Below are positions 3,388-20,934 of a stretch of DNA of 20,934 bases, in pieces. The DNA lies in the IMG/VR virus record IMGVR_UViG_3300030060_003090, positions 1 through 20,934 of that record. One strand, written 5' to 3'. How positions within the stretch are numbered: the first letter of the stretch is position 1; every line of letters begins with the position of its first letter. A program made the translations under genes and the position numbers. Under the pieces are notes generated by a model. That model was not told where the DNA came from. It did no database searches and saw only the letters and a program-made list of their open reading frames with translations. This DNA comes from a virus.

Positions 3388-4468
3388 ATGGCAATAAGTG
3401 AAAATTTTTCTGGTGCTTCGGTAACCACCACTACTGCCGCTAAATAAAATTGGCGGCATAAAATCGCGGAATTAAGCGGGAAGGCTAAGTCGTAAGATAA
3501 GCTAATCCGAACCGAAGGCGTAAGCCAGGGGCAGAGCATAGATCTTGAAATAACAGATCCACGAGGCCGCGACAACGAGAGTTGAAAAGATATGCCGAAC
3601 TTTAGGGAAACCTAAAGAAGTAGAGGATAAAAAGCCTTTACGGTAACAACTGAATTTTATCCCCGAGATTTGGACTGACGGTGTAAAGAATTACTTAGAA
3701 CGCGCTCTTGTATTTGAGCAAGTTGTTGATTCTTCGCTAAACGGTCTAGTCAAGGGTAGAGGAGATGTGTTCCACATTCCAAAATTAGCAGAAGCAAGTG
3801 ATGCAGCGAAGTCCGCAGAAACTCTTGTAACATACTCAGCTTCAACTCACGGAGAAGCTCAATTAACAATCGATCAGCATCGTTACGTTGCAAAATTGGT
3901 AGAAGACATAGCAAACGTACAGGCTACCCCTGGTCTTTTTGAGAAAGAAATTTCGACTATGGGTTACGCTCTAGCTAAGACCTACGATGCATTCATTGAG
4001 TCTAGGATTGAATCAGCTACCACCAACTCAACTGCATTAGGGACAGATAATGTTATTACCGCAGCAGAGTTACGCGGTGGTATGAAGACCTTGATGGAAG
4101 CAGACGTTCCAATCCAAGAATGTAACTTGATTGTAAGTCCAGCTCTTTACTCAGCATTGCTCGGAATCTCTGATTTCGTAGATGCTAGTAAAATTGGTGC
4201 AGGACAAGCTCCAACATATAATGGCCAAATCGGTCTATTGTATGGCATGAACGTACTAACCAGTACTGTCATGGGTTCAAGTGGATCAGCTGGTGTGGAG
4301 GTAGGATACATTGTGCATCCTTCAGCCGTTTCAGTTGCGAGACAGCTAGAACCAAGAGTACAGACAGAATACTCTGTTGACTTTTTAGGCAACAAAGTCG
4401 TTTCTGATATGCTCTACGGTGCAGTTGCAGTTTTTGAAGGTCGTATTCAAGAGTTCAAGAATCCGTAA
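3388..4468 (+). CDS. major capsid protein, gene split by a group I intron (exons 3388-3441 and 3653-4468)
   Basis: Unspliced, the ATG at 3388 (ribosome binding site AGAAGGGA) gives only 19 residues and stops at TAA 3445-3447. Removing 3442-3652 joins GCT codon 18 to AAT and yields one frame of 870 nt, 289 residues. The N-terminus reads MAISENFSGASVTTTTAA, continuing as NFIPEIWTDGVKNYLERALV. The FIPEIW...LVF motif near the N-terminus, followed by VDSSLNGLVKGRGDVFHIP, is typical of HK97-fold capsid proteins of siphoviruses of about 290-320 residues. Later parts include a helix rich in Asp/Ala (LAKTYDAFIES) and a C-terminus with YGAVAVFEGRIQEFKNP. The gene follows the scaffold. A GTG at 3767 could be mistaken for the start but lies deep within the coding sequence. 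Correct expression requires splicing. Confidence 0.92.
3442..3652 (+). ncRNA. self-splicing group I intron (subgroup IA-like), 211 nt, no internal reading frame
   Basis: The full group I core can be traced. P1: exon GCCGCU (3436-3441) pairs with the guide GGCGGC (3452-3457), giving the required U-G wobble at the splice site. P10: AAAAUU (3446-3451) pairs perfectly with exon 2 AAUUUU (3653-3658). P3: UCGCGG (3464-3469) with CCGCGA (3567-3572). P5 is about 3483-3486 with 3500-3503, capped by a GUAA loop. P6a is GGC-GUAA-GCC (3517-3526). P7: GCAUA (3536-3540) with UAUGC (3591-3595) inside CAGAGCAUAG and AAGAUAUGCC, the R and S consensus elements. An extra hairpin GAUCU/AGAUC (3541-3559) between P7 and P3 is the P7.1 hallmark of subgroup IA. 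P8: CAAC-GAGA-GUUG (3573-3584). P9: CUUUAGG-GAAA-CCUAAAG (3600-3617). A further P9-domain stem is 3620-3626 with 3635-3641. The terminal G is 3652. P4 is short and less certain. Boundaries restore the capsid frame exactly. Confidence 0.95.
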
Positions 4469-4779: not shown

Positions 4780-7700
4780 ATGGCAAATTATAACTCAAGC
4801 TTTACTGGTGCGCAGATTGACAGCGCAGTAGAGCGAACCAACTCCACAGATGTAACAGCAGGAACCATTACTGCATCTAAAACAGTCGTTGTTGATTCTA
4901 ACAAGGACATTACTGGATTTAGAAACATCACAGCTACAGGCACAATTACTGCCGATAGTTTTACTGCTACAGGGAATACCACGATAGGCGATGCTGCTAC
5001 AGACACGATCGCAATCAATTCCACTATCACAACAGATTTAATCTTTGAAGGTTCATCAGCAGATGCAAATGAACTAACACTTACCCCAGGTAATCCTAGC
5101 GCAGATCGTACTATAACCTTACCAGATGCTACTGACACACTTGTGGGTAAGGCTACATCGGACGTACTTACTAACAAAACTTTAACTTCTCCAGATATCA
5201 ACTCGCCAGACATTGATGGCGGTACAGTAGATGCTATCACATCTCTGACCGTAGCAAACAATGTAGATATAGGTAGCTTTGACTTACGAGCAGCTACATT
5301 AACCGCAGATGGACTTACTAGCGGTAGAGTGGTCTTCGCTGGGACTAATGGTGTTCTTAGTGATGATTCTGATTTATCTTTTAGTGGTTCAACACTATCT
5401 GCGACCAATCTTACTTCCTCTGGTACAGTATCATTCGGAACTCTTACAGACTCTGGAGAGTCAATCGCTATCACTAAGTTTGTCGATGAAGGAGATGCCA
5501 TAGCTTCTAACGACAATGATACCACAATACCGACTTCAGCAGCAATCAAAGATTACGTAGATACGCAAGATGCTGCGATAGCTTCTGATACATTGACCTT
5601 TACTAACAAGACCTTTGATGTAGAAGCATCGGGCAATAGCATATCTAACATAGATGTTGCAGATTTAAAATCTGGAGTTTTAGATACAGATATTTCTAGC
5701 GTATCTAGCTCAGATGATACAATAGCTTCTGCAAAGGCAATCAAGACTTATATTGATTCACAGGTAACTGCCCAGGATCTTGACTTCCAAGGCGATAGCG
5801 GTGGAGCGTTATCTATTGATTTAGATTCTGAAACCATAACCTTTGCTGGTGGCACAGGAGTTGCAACCGTTGGCTCTGGCAACACGGTCACTTTTAATTC
5901 TGTAGATTCAGAGATTGTACACGACAATCTTAGTGGCTTTGTAGCGAATGAACATATCGATCATAGCGGAGTCACGCTAACTGCTGGTAATGGTTTAAGT
6001 GGTGGTGGCGACATTACTGCTTCAAGGACCTTTGCATTAGATTTGAATGAATTATCAACAGAAACATCGATTGCAGATGCTGATTTTATTGCTATGGTTG
6101 ATGCTGATAATGATGGATCTCGTAAAATTACTTTTGAAAATTTAGAAGATGCTATTTTTGCATCTGTTAGTGGTGATATAGCCATAACAGAAGCTGGTGT
6201 AGCTACGATTCAAGCAAATAGTGTTGCACTAGCCACCGATACAACAGGAGATTTTGTTAACTCCATCACCGCAGGTACAGGCTTAACATCTACAGGTGCA
6301 ACAAGCGGAGAGAATATATCTCATAGTTTAAGTGTTGATGCGAGCCAAACTCAGATAACTGCTGTAGGTGCATTAGATGCAGGGTCAATCACAAGTGGGT
6401 TTGGTAATATAGATAACGGCTCTAGCACAGCAAACTTTGGTTCTACCACCGTAGACTCATTAAGTGTATCAGATGGCAACATAACAAACGTAGGAGATAT
6501 TGCATTAGATTCTATTAGCGCAGATGGCTCCACTATCAATATAGCAATAGGCGATAGTACATCTGATGTATTTACAATCAAAGAAGGCTCTAATAAATAC
6601 TTTGCAATAGCAACATCTGAATCTGCTGAGAATATAGCGATTGGTACAGGGGTTAGCGGAACTGCTATATCCATTGGACACTCTACTTCTGTTACTACAG
6701 TTAATGATAATTTAATAGTCACAGGCGATTTGACTGTCAATGGTGCAACTTCCACAATTTCTACTACAAACACAGTAGTTTCAGACACTTTGATAGAGCT
6801 TGGCAACGGAACCTCTGGAACACCAGCTAATGACTCTGGTATTGTGATTGAAAGAGGTAGCGCAGACAATGCATTCTTAGGCTTTGATGAATCTGATGAT
6901 AAGTTTATCGTAGGTACAGGTTCTTTCACAGGTGCATCAACAGGCTCATTGACAATTACCACAGGAACCTTAAAAGCAAACATTGAGGGTAACTTAACAG
7001 GCAATGTCACAGGAACTGCTACTAACGCAACTCATGTTAACGTAGCTGATAATGAGAGTACAAACGAAAATAATTTAATACCTTTTATTGAAGATACTTC
7101 CGCTACAGGAAATGTAGGATTAGAATCTGACGGAGACTTACACTACAATCCATCAACAGGCAGACTTACTGCAACGCAATTAGCAGGAACTTTACAAACC
7201 GCAGCACAGACAAATATTACAAGCACAGGTGCGCTTGATGGTGGAAGTATAACTTCTAACTTTGGAGCTATAAACACAGGCTCAAGCAATATAACCACAA
7301 CAGGTGTTGGCACATTTGGTTCATTGGATATCTCTGGAGACATTGATGTTGATGGAGCTACTAATTTAGATAACGTAGATATAGATGGTGATGTTGATAT
7401 TGCAAGTACACTTACAGTAAACAATACTGCAACAATCACAACAAGCAATGCAAACGTATTAACCTTAAAAAGCGAAGATACGGATGCTGCTAATATATTT
7501 AGGATTATAGCAGATGATAACGGATCGGTGTTTACGGTTGATAAAGATGCAAACGATCATGGCGAGGTCTTTGTCTTTGACGGAAGCGGAAACTCAAACG
7601 TAAAACTTTATGGCGGAACTGGTCAAATCGTAGCTTCCTCACTAGATATATCTGGCGATATAGATATTGACGGCACAACCAATCTTGATGTAGTTGATAT

Positions 7701-9279
7701 TGATGGTGCAGTAGATATGGCATCAACGCTGACCGTTGCTGGGGATGCTAACTTTGATTCTAATACTTTGTTTGTAGATGCATCTGAAAATAAAGTGGGT
7801 ATCCAAACAAATTCACCATCATATGAATTAGATGTGCAAGATAGCGACCAAGCTGACATAAGGGTAAGTGGTGGAAATCAAGGGAGAGTAATTTTTACTG
7901 ATACTGGTGGCACAAGTGGTGCAAGGAATTGGGATGTAAAAGTTTCTGACGATGTTTTTCAAATTAGAAATTTAGCCGATGATTATGGGAGTATTTTAAA
8001 TACTCCTTTTACAGCAGATACAAATGGAAATATTGGTATAGGTGTGACTCCTGAAGATTGGGATACTGCTAACGCTTTTAAGGTATTACAATTAGGATTA
8101 GGTGCTTGTGTGGCTGGTTATGGTACAAGTACACCTCATGCTATTCTTGGTAATAATATTTACTTTGATGATACCAATAATAAATGGCAGTATATAGTAA
8201 ATAACACAGCTACTTTATATCATCAAAATAATGATGGTAAGCATGTTTGGTTTACTGCAGTTTCTGGGAATGTGGATGCTGAAGTTACTTTAAATGAGAG
8301 AATGGTAATATTAAACGATGGAAAGATTGGTATTAACACAAGTAGTCCAAGTTATTTATTGCATGTCAGAGCTGCTGATGGTGATTCAGCTAATAATTTA
8401 GTTGCAAGATTTGAAAACCTTGAAGCTAGTGCTGGTGAAAGCAGAGGAGTACAGATTACTGCTGGTTCTAATGCAAGTGATTATCCTTTTCTTATTGAAA
8501 ATGCTGCTGGTACTGAATTATTAAGAGTACGAGGTGATGGAAATGTTTCAATGGCTGGAAACTTAACACTAAGTGGAAATCTTACTACTTCTGGCAATAT
8601 TGAACATGACGGAACTATAACAACAGATATTACAACAAACAATACTGGGCATGACTTCAGACTTCATGCAGATAATAGTTTTGTTAATAGCATTGATAAT
8701 TTCTTTGATGGTGCAAGTGCTGCTTCATCTTTTATGAGATTTAAAGTTGCAAGTGGCTCTGGCTCACAAACAACAATAATGGATTTAAAAGGTGATGGAA
8801 CACTTGCAATGGGTACTATGGGAACTAATAATGACGGCTTTGAAGTTATTGCAAATAGTTCTGTAGGTGGTTTGTTATCATTAAGCTCAAGCACAGAAAC
8901 AGACCAAGAAAGAATGAGATTTTTTAATGGTAATGGAAAAATTGGAACTATTAAAACAAATGGCTCTGCTACATCTTTTAATACAAGCTCAGATTACAGG
9001 TTAAAGGAAAATGAAGTTCCTTTATCCAATGGGTTAGAAAGATTGAATAATTTAAGCCCCTATAAATTTAATTTTAAAAATGATAAAGAAAATATTGTAG
9101 ATGGATTTTTTGCCCATGAAGTGCAAGAATTTGTACCTAATGCAGTTTCTGGCGTAAAAGATGGGGAAGAAATGCAACAAATAGACCATTCAAAGTTAGT
9201 GCCTTTGCTTGTAGCATCTGTTCAAGAGCTATCAGCAAAAGTAGAAGAGCTTGAAAAAACTTGCAAAGATTGTTGTTAA
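4780..9279 (+). CDS. giant phage fibre with C-terminal Peptidase_S74 chaperone domain
   Basis: This 1499-residue fibre has a ribosome binding site (AGAGGA) just before the ATG. The N-terminus (YNSSFTGAQIDSAVE) resembles the short anchoring motif at the start of many phage fibres. Residues about 20-1000 are Thr/Ser/Asp/Gly/Ala-rich beta-type repeats (TLTNKTLTSPDINSPDIDGG, ITAGTGLTSTG). Residues 848-880 and 954-986 are a near copy of each other. The C-terminal domain from about 1404 contains SDYRLKEN, then GFFAHEVQEFVP and HSKLVPLLVASVQELSAKVE, matching the S74 intramolecular chaperone. Ser1404 and Lys1409 have the five-residue spacing of the endosialidase self-cleavage dyad, so the last 96 residues are probably cut off after trimerisation. 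It ends in a coiled coil and CKDCC. The gene lies in the head region rather than after the tape measure, so head fibre and tail fibre are both possible. Confidence 0.9.
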   Translation: MANYNSSFTGAQIDSAVERTNSTDVTAGTITASKTVVVDSNKDITGFRNITATGTITADSFTATGNTTIGDAATDTIAINSTITTDLIFEGSSADANELTLTPGNPSADRTITLPDATDTLVGKATSDVLTNKTLTSPDINSPDIDGGTVDAITSLTVANNVDIGSFDLRAATLTADGLTSGRVVFAGTNGVLSDDSDLSFSGSTLSATNLTSSGTVSFGTLTDSGESIAITKFVDEGDAIASNDNDTTIPTSAAIKDYVDTQDAAIASDTLTFTNKTFDVEASGNSISNIDVADLKSGVLDTDISSVSSSDDTIASAKAIKTYIDSQVTAQDLDFQGDSGGALSIDLDSETITFAGGTGVATVGSGNTVTFNSVDSEIVHDNLSGFVANEHIDHSGVTLTAGNGLSGGGDITASRTFALDLNELSTETSIADADFIAMVDADNDGSRKITFENLEDAIFASVSGDIAITEAGVATIQANSVALATDTTGDFVNSITAGTGLTSTGATSGENISHSLSVDASQTQITAVGALDAGSITSGFGNIDNGSSTANFGSTTVDSLSVSDGNITNVGDIALDSISADGSTINIAIGDSTSDVFTIKEGSNKYFAIATSESAENIAIGTGVSGTAISIGHSTSVTTVNDNLIVTGDLTVNGATSTISTTNTVVSDTLIELGNGTSGTPANDSGIVIERGSADNAFLGFDESDDKFIVGTGSFTGASTGSLTITTGTLKANIEGNLTGNVTGTATNATHVNVADNESTNENNLIPFIEDTSATGNVGLESDGDLHYNPSTGRLTATQLAGTLQTAAQTNITSTGALDGGSITSNFGAINTGSSNITTTGVGTFGSLDISGDIDVDGATNLDNVDIDGDVDIASTLTVNNTATITTSNANVLTLKSEDTDAANIFRIIADDNGSVFTVDKDANDHGEVFVFDGSGNSNVKLYGGTGQIVASSLDISGDIDIDGTTNLDVVDIDGAVDMASTLTVAGDANFDSNTLFVDASENKVGIQTNSPSYELDVQDSDQADIRVSGGNQGRVIFTDTGGTSGARNWDVKVSDDVFQIRNLADDYGSILNTPFTADTNGNIGIGVTPEDWDTANAFKVLQLGLGACVAGYGTSTPHAILGNNIYFDDTNNKWQYIVNNTATLYHQNNDGKHVWFTAVSGNVDAEVTLNERMVILNDGKIGINTSSPSYLLHVRAADGDSANNLVARFENLEASAGESRGVQITAGSNASDYPFLIENAAGTELLRVRGDGNVSMAGNLTLSGNLTTSGNIEHDGTITTDITTNNTGHDFRLHADNSFVNSIDNFFDGASAASSFMRFKVASGSGSQTTIMDLKGDGTLAMGTMGTNNDGFEVIANSSVGGLLSLSSSTETDQERMRFFNGNGKIGTIKTNGSATSFNTSSDYRLKENEVPLSNGLERLNNLSPYKFNFKNDKENIVDGFFAHEVQEFVPNAVSGVKDGEEMQQIDHSKLVPLLVASVQELSAKVEELEKTCKDCC

Positions 9280-19979: not shown

Positions 19980-20755
19980 TGTCACAATTTTTTATATATC
20001 CATTCAATGGCAGACCTGTATCTGCACAAGTACAAAACGGAACCATAACAGATTCAGCTACAGGTGGAGCGTTTACTAATACTGGAACATCGGTAACAAA
20101 CCCCATGAGGCTTTTTGATGATAGCATAGGAACTGCAACCGATTTCCCTGCTGCTCATAGGGTAGTCATGGTAGATAAAGGAGCTGCTAGTGTTGGGCAA
20201 ATAGATAGGATAGCCTTTCATAGTACAGCGGCCGATACTGACGGTATAAGATTCTTTACTAATACTGCAGCTGACAATTCTACTACAAGTAGCTTTGCAA
20301 CGACAGATGCTATTACAGCAGGATGGAACATTCTTGAACCAACTGCAGCTGCTTCCGAAAGATATTATTATATGGCTGCATATGAAGGGCAGGTCAATAC
20401 TATAACAGAGCTAATAATTGGTAAAAAGCTTGATTTAACCAATGTTAAATTAGCGGGAACTGAGGGAGCAAACTACGGCAACACTCAAACTATGTCTCAT
20501 GGTGGTGTAGAATTTTCAAGTCAAAGACATGACAGAAAACGATTCTTTAACTTTGAACTAACATTTATAAACGAAACTTATAAAACATCACTTGAAACCA
20601 TGAGAGACTCTGTAGATCTCTCACATCATAAGTTCTTATACTATGACGGTAGTGAATATATATATGTCCGTATGTCTGATGACAGCTTACGTTTTAAGGA
20701 AGTGGCGTTCGGAGTATATGATACTTCTATCAAGCTTACTGAGCAACTAAGCTAA
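19979..20755 (+). CDS. putative distal tail / minor tail protein
   Basis: This 258-residue protein begins on the base where the hub gene stops (TAATG). The N-terminal half is beta-rich with a domain like a discoidin/carbohydrate-binding jelly-roll (FNGRPVSAQVQNG; RVVMVDKGAASVGQIDRIAF; SERYYYMAAYEGQVNTITEL, GKKLDLTNVKL). The C-terminal half (GGVEFSSQRHDRKRFFNFEL; KTSLETMRDSVDLSHHKFLY; GVYDTSIKLTEQLS) resembles a distal tail protein domain that measures or contacts the preceding ring. A receptor-contacting tail tip protein is plausible. It is the last gene of the tail module and its 3' end overlaps the convergent integrase by 20 bp. No family is confirmed. Confidence 0.6.
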   Translation: MSQFFIYPFNGRPVSAQVQNGTITDSATGGAFTNTGTSVTNPMRLFDDSIGTATDFPAAHRVVMVDKGAASVGQIDRIAFHSTAADTDGIRFFTNTAADNSTTSSFATTDAITAGWNILEPTAAASERYYYMAAYEGQVNTITELIIGKKLDLTNVKLAGTEGANYGNTQTMSHGGVEFSSQRHDRKRFFNFELTFINETYKTSLETMRDSVDLSHHKFLYYDGSEYIYVRMSDDSLRFKEVAFGVYDTSIKLTEQLS

Positions 20756-20934
20756 TCATCTTTCGCTGTAGTGTGTGGACAGCTTTGGTCTTGTCCTTCA
20801 TGTTCCAATCAGCATAACAAGCTTCCGTGACCGCTACGTTAGAGTGACCCAGATGTTCTTTTACAGCGTAGATATTCTCAGTTTCTCGTAGCATCATAGT
20901 GGCGGATGTATCTCTAAGGTCATGAACCGTAAAA
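20736..20934 (-). CDS. int: tyrosine recombinase / phage integrase, C-terminal fragment (partial)
   Basis: This is the C-terminal end of a gene on the - strand that enters from the right edge; 65 residues are visible before the stop (TAA complement 20736-20738). The motifs HDLRDTSATMM (His and Arg of the HxxR box), LGHSNVAVTEACYADW (the LGH His, then Tyr nucleophile 10 residues later) and a short basic tail identify a tyrosine recombinase of the phage integrase family, which cuts and joins attP and attB DNA. Box I Arg is outside the window. In most family members Asp8 is His (HxLRHT), a variation. Its convergence with the tail gene, with no intergenic space, is unusual. It is the only gene on this strand and implies a temperate phage. 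Confidence 0.88.
   Translation of the reverse strand, partial: FTVHDLRDTSATMMLRETENIYAVKEHLGHSNVAVTEACYADWNMKDKTKAVHTLQRKMISLVAQ

Follow-up and report, generated by a model that had tools for sequence, protein, structure and literature searches.

The major capsid gene of the phage represented by IMG/VR record IMGVR_UViG_3300030060_003090, analysed here as a single stretch of 20,934 nt (the window), is interrupted after codon 18 by a 211-nt insert (3442–3652), which can be assigned with a probability of about 95% to the ORF-less group I introns, probably of the IA type; its two exons would be spliced into a message for a 289-aa capsid protein, and the intron would belong to a family that has colonised this gene time and again. 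The window comes from an uncultured phage that is probably marine. The capsid reading frame begins at ATG 3388, downstream of a Shine–Dalgarno-like AAGGG, and ends at TAA 3445–3447, the second codon of the insert, while the frame of exon 2 is open over 3653–4468. Joining the exons without the insert restores the frame exactly. The match of exon 2 to the major head protein family PHROG 267 (1e-38) and to Pfam Phage_capsid_4 (2e-9) identifies the predicted product as a major capsid protein; capsid relatives obtained in the host search (84,980 genomes) were only ~25% identical, plus one short match. The coordinates of the exons, the insert and the stop codon given in an earlier reading made from the sequence alone (the sequence-only reading) were right, including the stop two codons past the 5′ splice site and the 289-residue product expected after removal of 3442–3652; two uninterrupted relatives join identical exon ends. 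The features of the gene and of the intron are listed in Table 1.

Table 1. Coordinates of the capsid gene exons and of the intron elements in the window.
Feature	Position	Strand	Remarks
Capsid gene exon 1 (codons 1–18, MAISENFSGASVTTTTAA)	3388..3441	+	uninterrupted homologues L002, L003
P1 exon strand UGCCGCU, U at 5′ splice site	3435..3441	+	co-varies with guide 3452–3458 in relatives
Group I intron, 211 nt, no ORF	3442..3652	+	
P10 strand AUAAAAUU, pairs with exon 2 3653–3660	3444..3451	+	
UAA stop in frame with exon 1, in P1 loop	3445..3447	+	
Internal guide sequence GGCGGCA (P1 3′ strand)	3452..3458	+	
P3 5′ strand UCGCGG	3464..3469	+	100% paired, 22 introns; 5/6 pairs with compensatory changes
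P4 5′ strand CGGG	3477..3480	+	3′ strand 3506–3509
P5 stem-loop	3483..3503	+	GGCU 3483–3486 / AGCU 3500–3503
P6/P6a stem-loop	3512..3529	+	
P7 5′ strand GCAUA, guanosine-binding helix	3536..3540	+	100% paired
P7.1 hairpin between P7 and P3′ (IA-type feature)	3541..3559	+	4/5 pairs with compensatory changes
P3 3′ strand CCGCGA	3567..3572	+	
P8 hairpin	3573..3584	+	
P7 3′ strand UAUGC	3591..3595	+	
P9 hairpin	3600..3617	+	helix register imperfect in alignment
Second 3′-domain hairpin (P9.1-like)	3620..3641	+	partly misaligned between families
Terminal (omega) G of intron, 3′ splice site	3652..3652	+	
Capsid gene exon 2 (codons 19–289, NFIPEIW...)	3653..4468	+	PHROG 267, Pfam Phage_capsid_4

Elsewhere in the window, positions 4780–9279 encode a probable tail-fibre protein of 1499 aa, carrying a Peptidase_S74 chaperone domain at its C-terminus, and positions 20736–20933 (minus strand), at the contig end, encode the C-terminal end of a tyrosine integrase (Pfam Phage_integrase), which suggests that the phage may be temperate.

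Where the insert begins and ends is set by the empty-site alleles of relatives L002 and L003, which carry the same capsid gene uninterrupted exactly at the insertion point of the window, so that a precise insertion, empty sites and a restored frame are all found together. The upstream DNA of the window and of its close empty-site relatives is 96–97% identical; window and L003 show 96.5% identity over the stretch between base 1 and the splice site and 92.5% identity onward from 3653, with a single difference of 211 nt in between. Alignment leaves the boundaries with a sliding ambiguity of two bases, which is resolved by the rules of the U–G pair at the 5′ splice site and the terminal G. In principle, the contigs of the relatives that lack the insert might derive from cDNA. 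Entries L004 and L062 are one contig, in which the start of the capsid gene occurs twice, with and without an intron at nt 60; this is probably an assembly mixture of two strains.

The structural features expected of a group I intron are present at both ends of the insert. The exon–guide helix P1, with its U–G pair at the splice site, comprises 7 bp, slightly more than the GCCGCU/GGCGGC pairing first proposed; P10 (AUAAAAUU with AAUUUUAU) comprises 8 bp instead of six, and the intron ends in G3652. The complementarity proposed for P3, P7, P8 and P9 was likewise recovered, P9 in an imperfect alignment register. The signal exceeds chance, as judged from a folding z-score of −4.3 and from the covariance-model matches given below. 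An alignment of 22 introns, all from the same capsid gene, was folded de novo and returned P3–P6, P7.1, P8 and part of P9, the pseudoknotted P7 being counted separately. P3, P7, P8 and P7.1 are 100% paired across the 22 introns with compensatory changes, which in P7 affect two of the five pairs (variants GCAUA/UAUGC, GACUA/UAGUC and GCGUA/UACGC). The covariation score is 0.432 versus 0.170 for shuffled alignments, and none of 500 shuffles scored as high. A test for subgroup IA, which has extra P7.1/P7.2 hairpins, found one covarying hairpin between P7 and P3. The guide, in turn, co-varies with silent wobble bases of the exon (UGCCGCU/GGCGGCA, CGCUGCU/GGCAGCG and AGCUGCU/GGCAGCU).

Covariance-model searches lead to the same assignment. 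The search with Rfam Intron_gpI, which the sequence-only reading had named as a check, gave a full-length match (all 253 positions aligned, 32.9 bits, E = 7e-7 on a 341-nt stretch), but with a score below the RF00028 gathering cut-off of 50 bits, which is an annotation threshold and not a biological feature. At the gathering threshold Rfam gives no match in the window; default Rfam annotation thus misses this intron, whose score lies under the curated cut-off, as well as most of its relatives, and capsid genes of the lineage are consequently likely to be called truncated or fragmented. A second model, R2, built from introns at other sites only and from none at the site of the window, matched the window out of sample with 163.6 bits (E~5e-57), gave no match in the intron-less L002, L003 and L004, and recovered, as a positive control, two introns of phage Twort in regions that Rfam too calls group I. 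Together, the empty-site alleles, the covariation of the core, the out-of-sample model and the exon–guide covariation strongly uphold the central proposal of the sequence-only reading, a group I intron in a capsid gene of two exons.

The structure suggests how the gene would be expressed. Ribosomes translating exon 1 would reach the UAA two codons into the intron and halt before the catalytic core, so that the core would be free to fold. By standard group I chemistry, a guanosine held in P7 would attack after U3441, and the freed exon 1, held by P1, would attack after G3652 with P10 aligning exon 2, whereupon the exons would be joined in frame. The idea that an in-frame stop may shield the folding core from ribosomes is not new (PMC3984707). 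An in-frame stop near the 5′ end, starting at or before intron nt 20 and lying within the first 22 nt, is found in all 26 distinct introns, as against a mean of 10.8 and a maximum of 20 in the shuffled control, although, the introns being related, the 26 stops are not independent events; the early stop is kept although the sites differ in reading-frame phase.

Other explanations of the interrupted frame fit these data poorly. The insert might be a decayed intron or mark a disrupted gene, with a shorter capsid protein made from GTG 3767, where an ORF does begin with AGAGGAG just upstream. However, every relative, with or without an insert, conserves the 38 residues encoded ahead of 3767, and AGAGGAG itself belongs to conserved coding sequence (GRGD), while the guide is a perfect fit to the exon, the core shows no loss and removal of the insert restores the frame exactly, which makes this explanation very unlikely. 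Over short times a dead intron would look identical to an active one; the intact frame, the pairing of the exon guide and the conserved core nevertheless argue against a dead intron, and splicing of the window intron is the reading that we infer from its sequence.

A stop codon right at the start of the insert would also be expected if ribosomes skipped it through translational bypassing of the kind known from T4 gene 60, with no RNA splicing involved, but against this stand the full group I core, the covarying P3–P7 pseudoknot, agreement with the U–G and terminal-G rules, and P10; moreover, the sites lie in phases 0 and 2, many inserts not being multiples of three. The window is a metagenomic contig, and the partly duplicated capsid start of L004/L062 has the look of an assembly mix, so that an intron of another phage might have been joined artificially into the capsid gene; however, independent contigs of different samples, among them L007, L016, L020–L022 and L052–L055, repeat this architecture, with guides matched to each exon. 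Given the group I core, the phases and this recurrence, bypassing and an assembly artefact were both rejected as extremely improbable.

A group I intron is by no means confined to the window, as a tblastn search of the spliced protein against 61 IMG/VR relatives, with refinement of the splice sites, found ORF-less capsid introns, each of about 211–258 nt, in about half of them. They occupy ten sites in the 870-nt gene, at nt 51, 54 (the site of the window), 60, 71, 173, 302, 360, 393, 704 and 792. A single capsid gene can contain four introns (L052, sites 54/173/302/792; L055, sites 54/173/704/792) or three (L059, sites 60/173/393). The introns at site 60 are a separate type, recognised by Rfam (74 bits), and those at the other sites form one family. 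Comparison of the neighbouring splice sites 51 and 54 showed that the intron at 690–930 of L017 has a 5′ half of the site-51 type and a 3′ half of the site-54 type, and looks like a recombinant of the two; its splicing would drop one alanine codon.

All introns found by the lineage model R1 in 18 lineage contigs, some of 30–36 kb, lie in the capsid gene, a result which covers the model's own intron family and says nothing on other intron types elsewhere. Rfam with a relaxed E-value found no group I introns in four long lineage contigs and missed even the known capsid introns, and so is unusable for excluding introns elsewhere in them; a search by sequence pattern for introns of the site-173/393 type gave no match. 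Beyond this gene, introns of the same family, which share a core signature of 16 bases, were found in other capsid genes, in tape-measure-like genes on contigs of isolate genomes and, in other phages, in terminase-like genes, the names of these host genes being judged from translated flanks. R1-type introns were observed at several sites of a second, unrelated gene in L072, L094, L067, L093, L081 and L096, which possibly encodes another major capsid protein family; in L140, three introns fall in a stretch of about 1.1 kb. They were also observed in a tape-measure-like gene of L077, L126, L088, L075, L155 and others (contigs of isolate genomes), where the insertion point is conserved and precedes the residues MTMYEDQG or MTMFEDQG.

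The distribution of the introns points to movement. On their own tree they group according to insertion site, with 8 changes of site, the lowest number possible for 9 sites, and on the capsid tree they are patchy (6 changes for site 54); the introns of the window and L053 are 95.7% identical, compared with 72.3% for the capsid exons. The family would thus appear to pass from phage to phage at fixed sites, jumps to new ones being rare. Relatives L014, L057 and L059 are 99.6–99.7% identical over kilobases and differ by one or two introns, of 229 nt at site 393 and of 231 nt at site 173, so that gain or precise loss must be recent, and they constitute a natural set for studying it. The capsid gene is normally among the most highly expressed genes of a phage, and these data indicate that even there small introns lacking an endonuclease can be maintained and remain polymorphic; the long-open question of how they move becomes testable on natural 99.6%-identical pairs.

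No homing endonuclease ORF is present in the 211 nt of the window intron, and HNH, HNH_3 and LAGLIDADG_1 gave no match in the 18 lineage contigs. GIY-YIG matches were found in 8 of the 18 contigs, only away from the capsid gene and, where inspected, between early genes; since they occur in phages both with and without capsid introns, they are not linked to the introns, and the free-standing GIY-YIG genes were rejected as the mobilising enzyme. In L271, L272 and L273, a GIY-YIG gene (135–150 aa) holds a conserved place among the early genes of the lineage, and its product is a candidate trans-acting homing endonuclease. Without an endonuclease of its own, the intron may move by phage recombination, a trans-acting nuclease or reverse splicing. 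A bolder proposal, which we regard as possible but doubtful, is that one ORF-less group I family has, in this lineage, the capsid gene as its dedicated multi-site niche and reaches new sites through reverse splicing of its RNA or with the help of a trans-acting nuclease, not through its own endonuclease, in which case virion production would need up to four successive self-splicing events.

The sequence-only reading set an intron in the main structural gene apart from those established in DNA-metabolism genes and some structural genes of phages; the intron itself stands, but the implied novelty was overstated, since phages Tuc2009 and LittleE and crAss-like phages precede it. Introns interrupting the major capsid gene were reported for lactococcal phage Tuc2009 and mycobacteriophage LittleE, in the latter with splicing shown by RT-PCR and the type called most likely group I (PMC3706429); the Tuc2009 record annotates its capsid intron as group I. 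Unlike the window intron, these introns carry an endonuclease gene, occur one per gene and reside in unrelated capsid genes. In a crAss-like phage of the Zeta group, the capsid gene is in five fragments, with several group I introns (PMC7886860), and in this it resembles the lineage of the window, but the crAss-like phages are larger and have introns and inteins in many genes, as well as intron-encoded domains, whereas the introns found here are ORF-less, about 211–258 nt long and, as detected by the model, located in the capsid gene only. The ORF-less group I introns of Jug phages are of comparable size (about 206 nt on average), and metatranscriptomes support the splicing of 37 of 76 (PMC12363816); Jug phages, however, are huge gut phages with introns in many genes, e.g., terL and nrdD. 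Staphylococcus phage Twort (orf142) and related staphylococcal phages are similar to the lineage in having several small introns in one gene; R1, like R2, matches the Twort introns in regions also found by Rfam, and staphylococcal phages share 80–89% DNA identity over a 70-nt core stretch, but the host gene, hosts and splice sites of Twort are different and the overall similarity is low. As far as the literature searched shows, what is unusual in the lineage of the window is the concentration of ORF-less introns at ten sites of one late gene, together with their polymorphism between near-identical phages.
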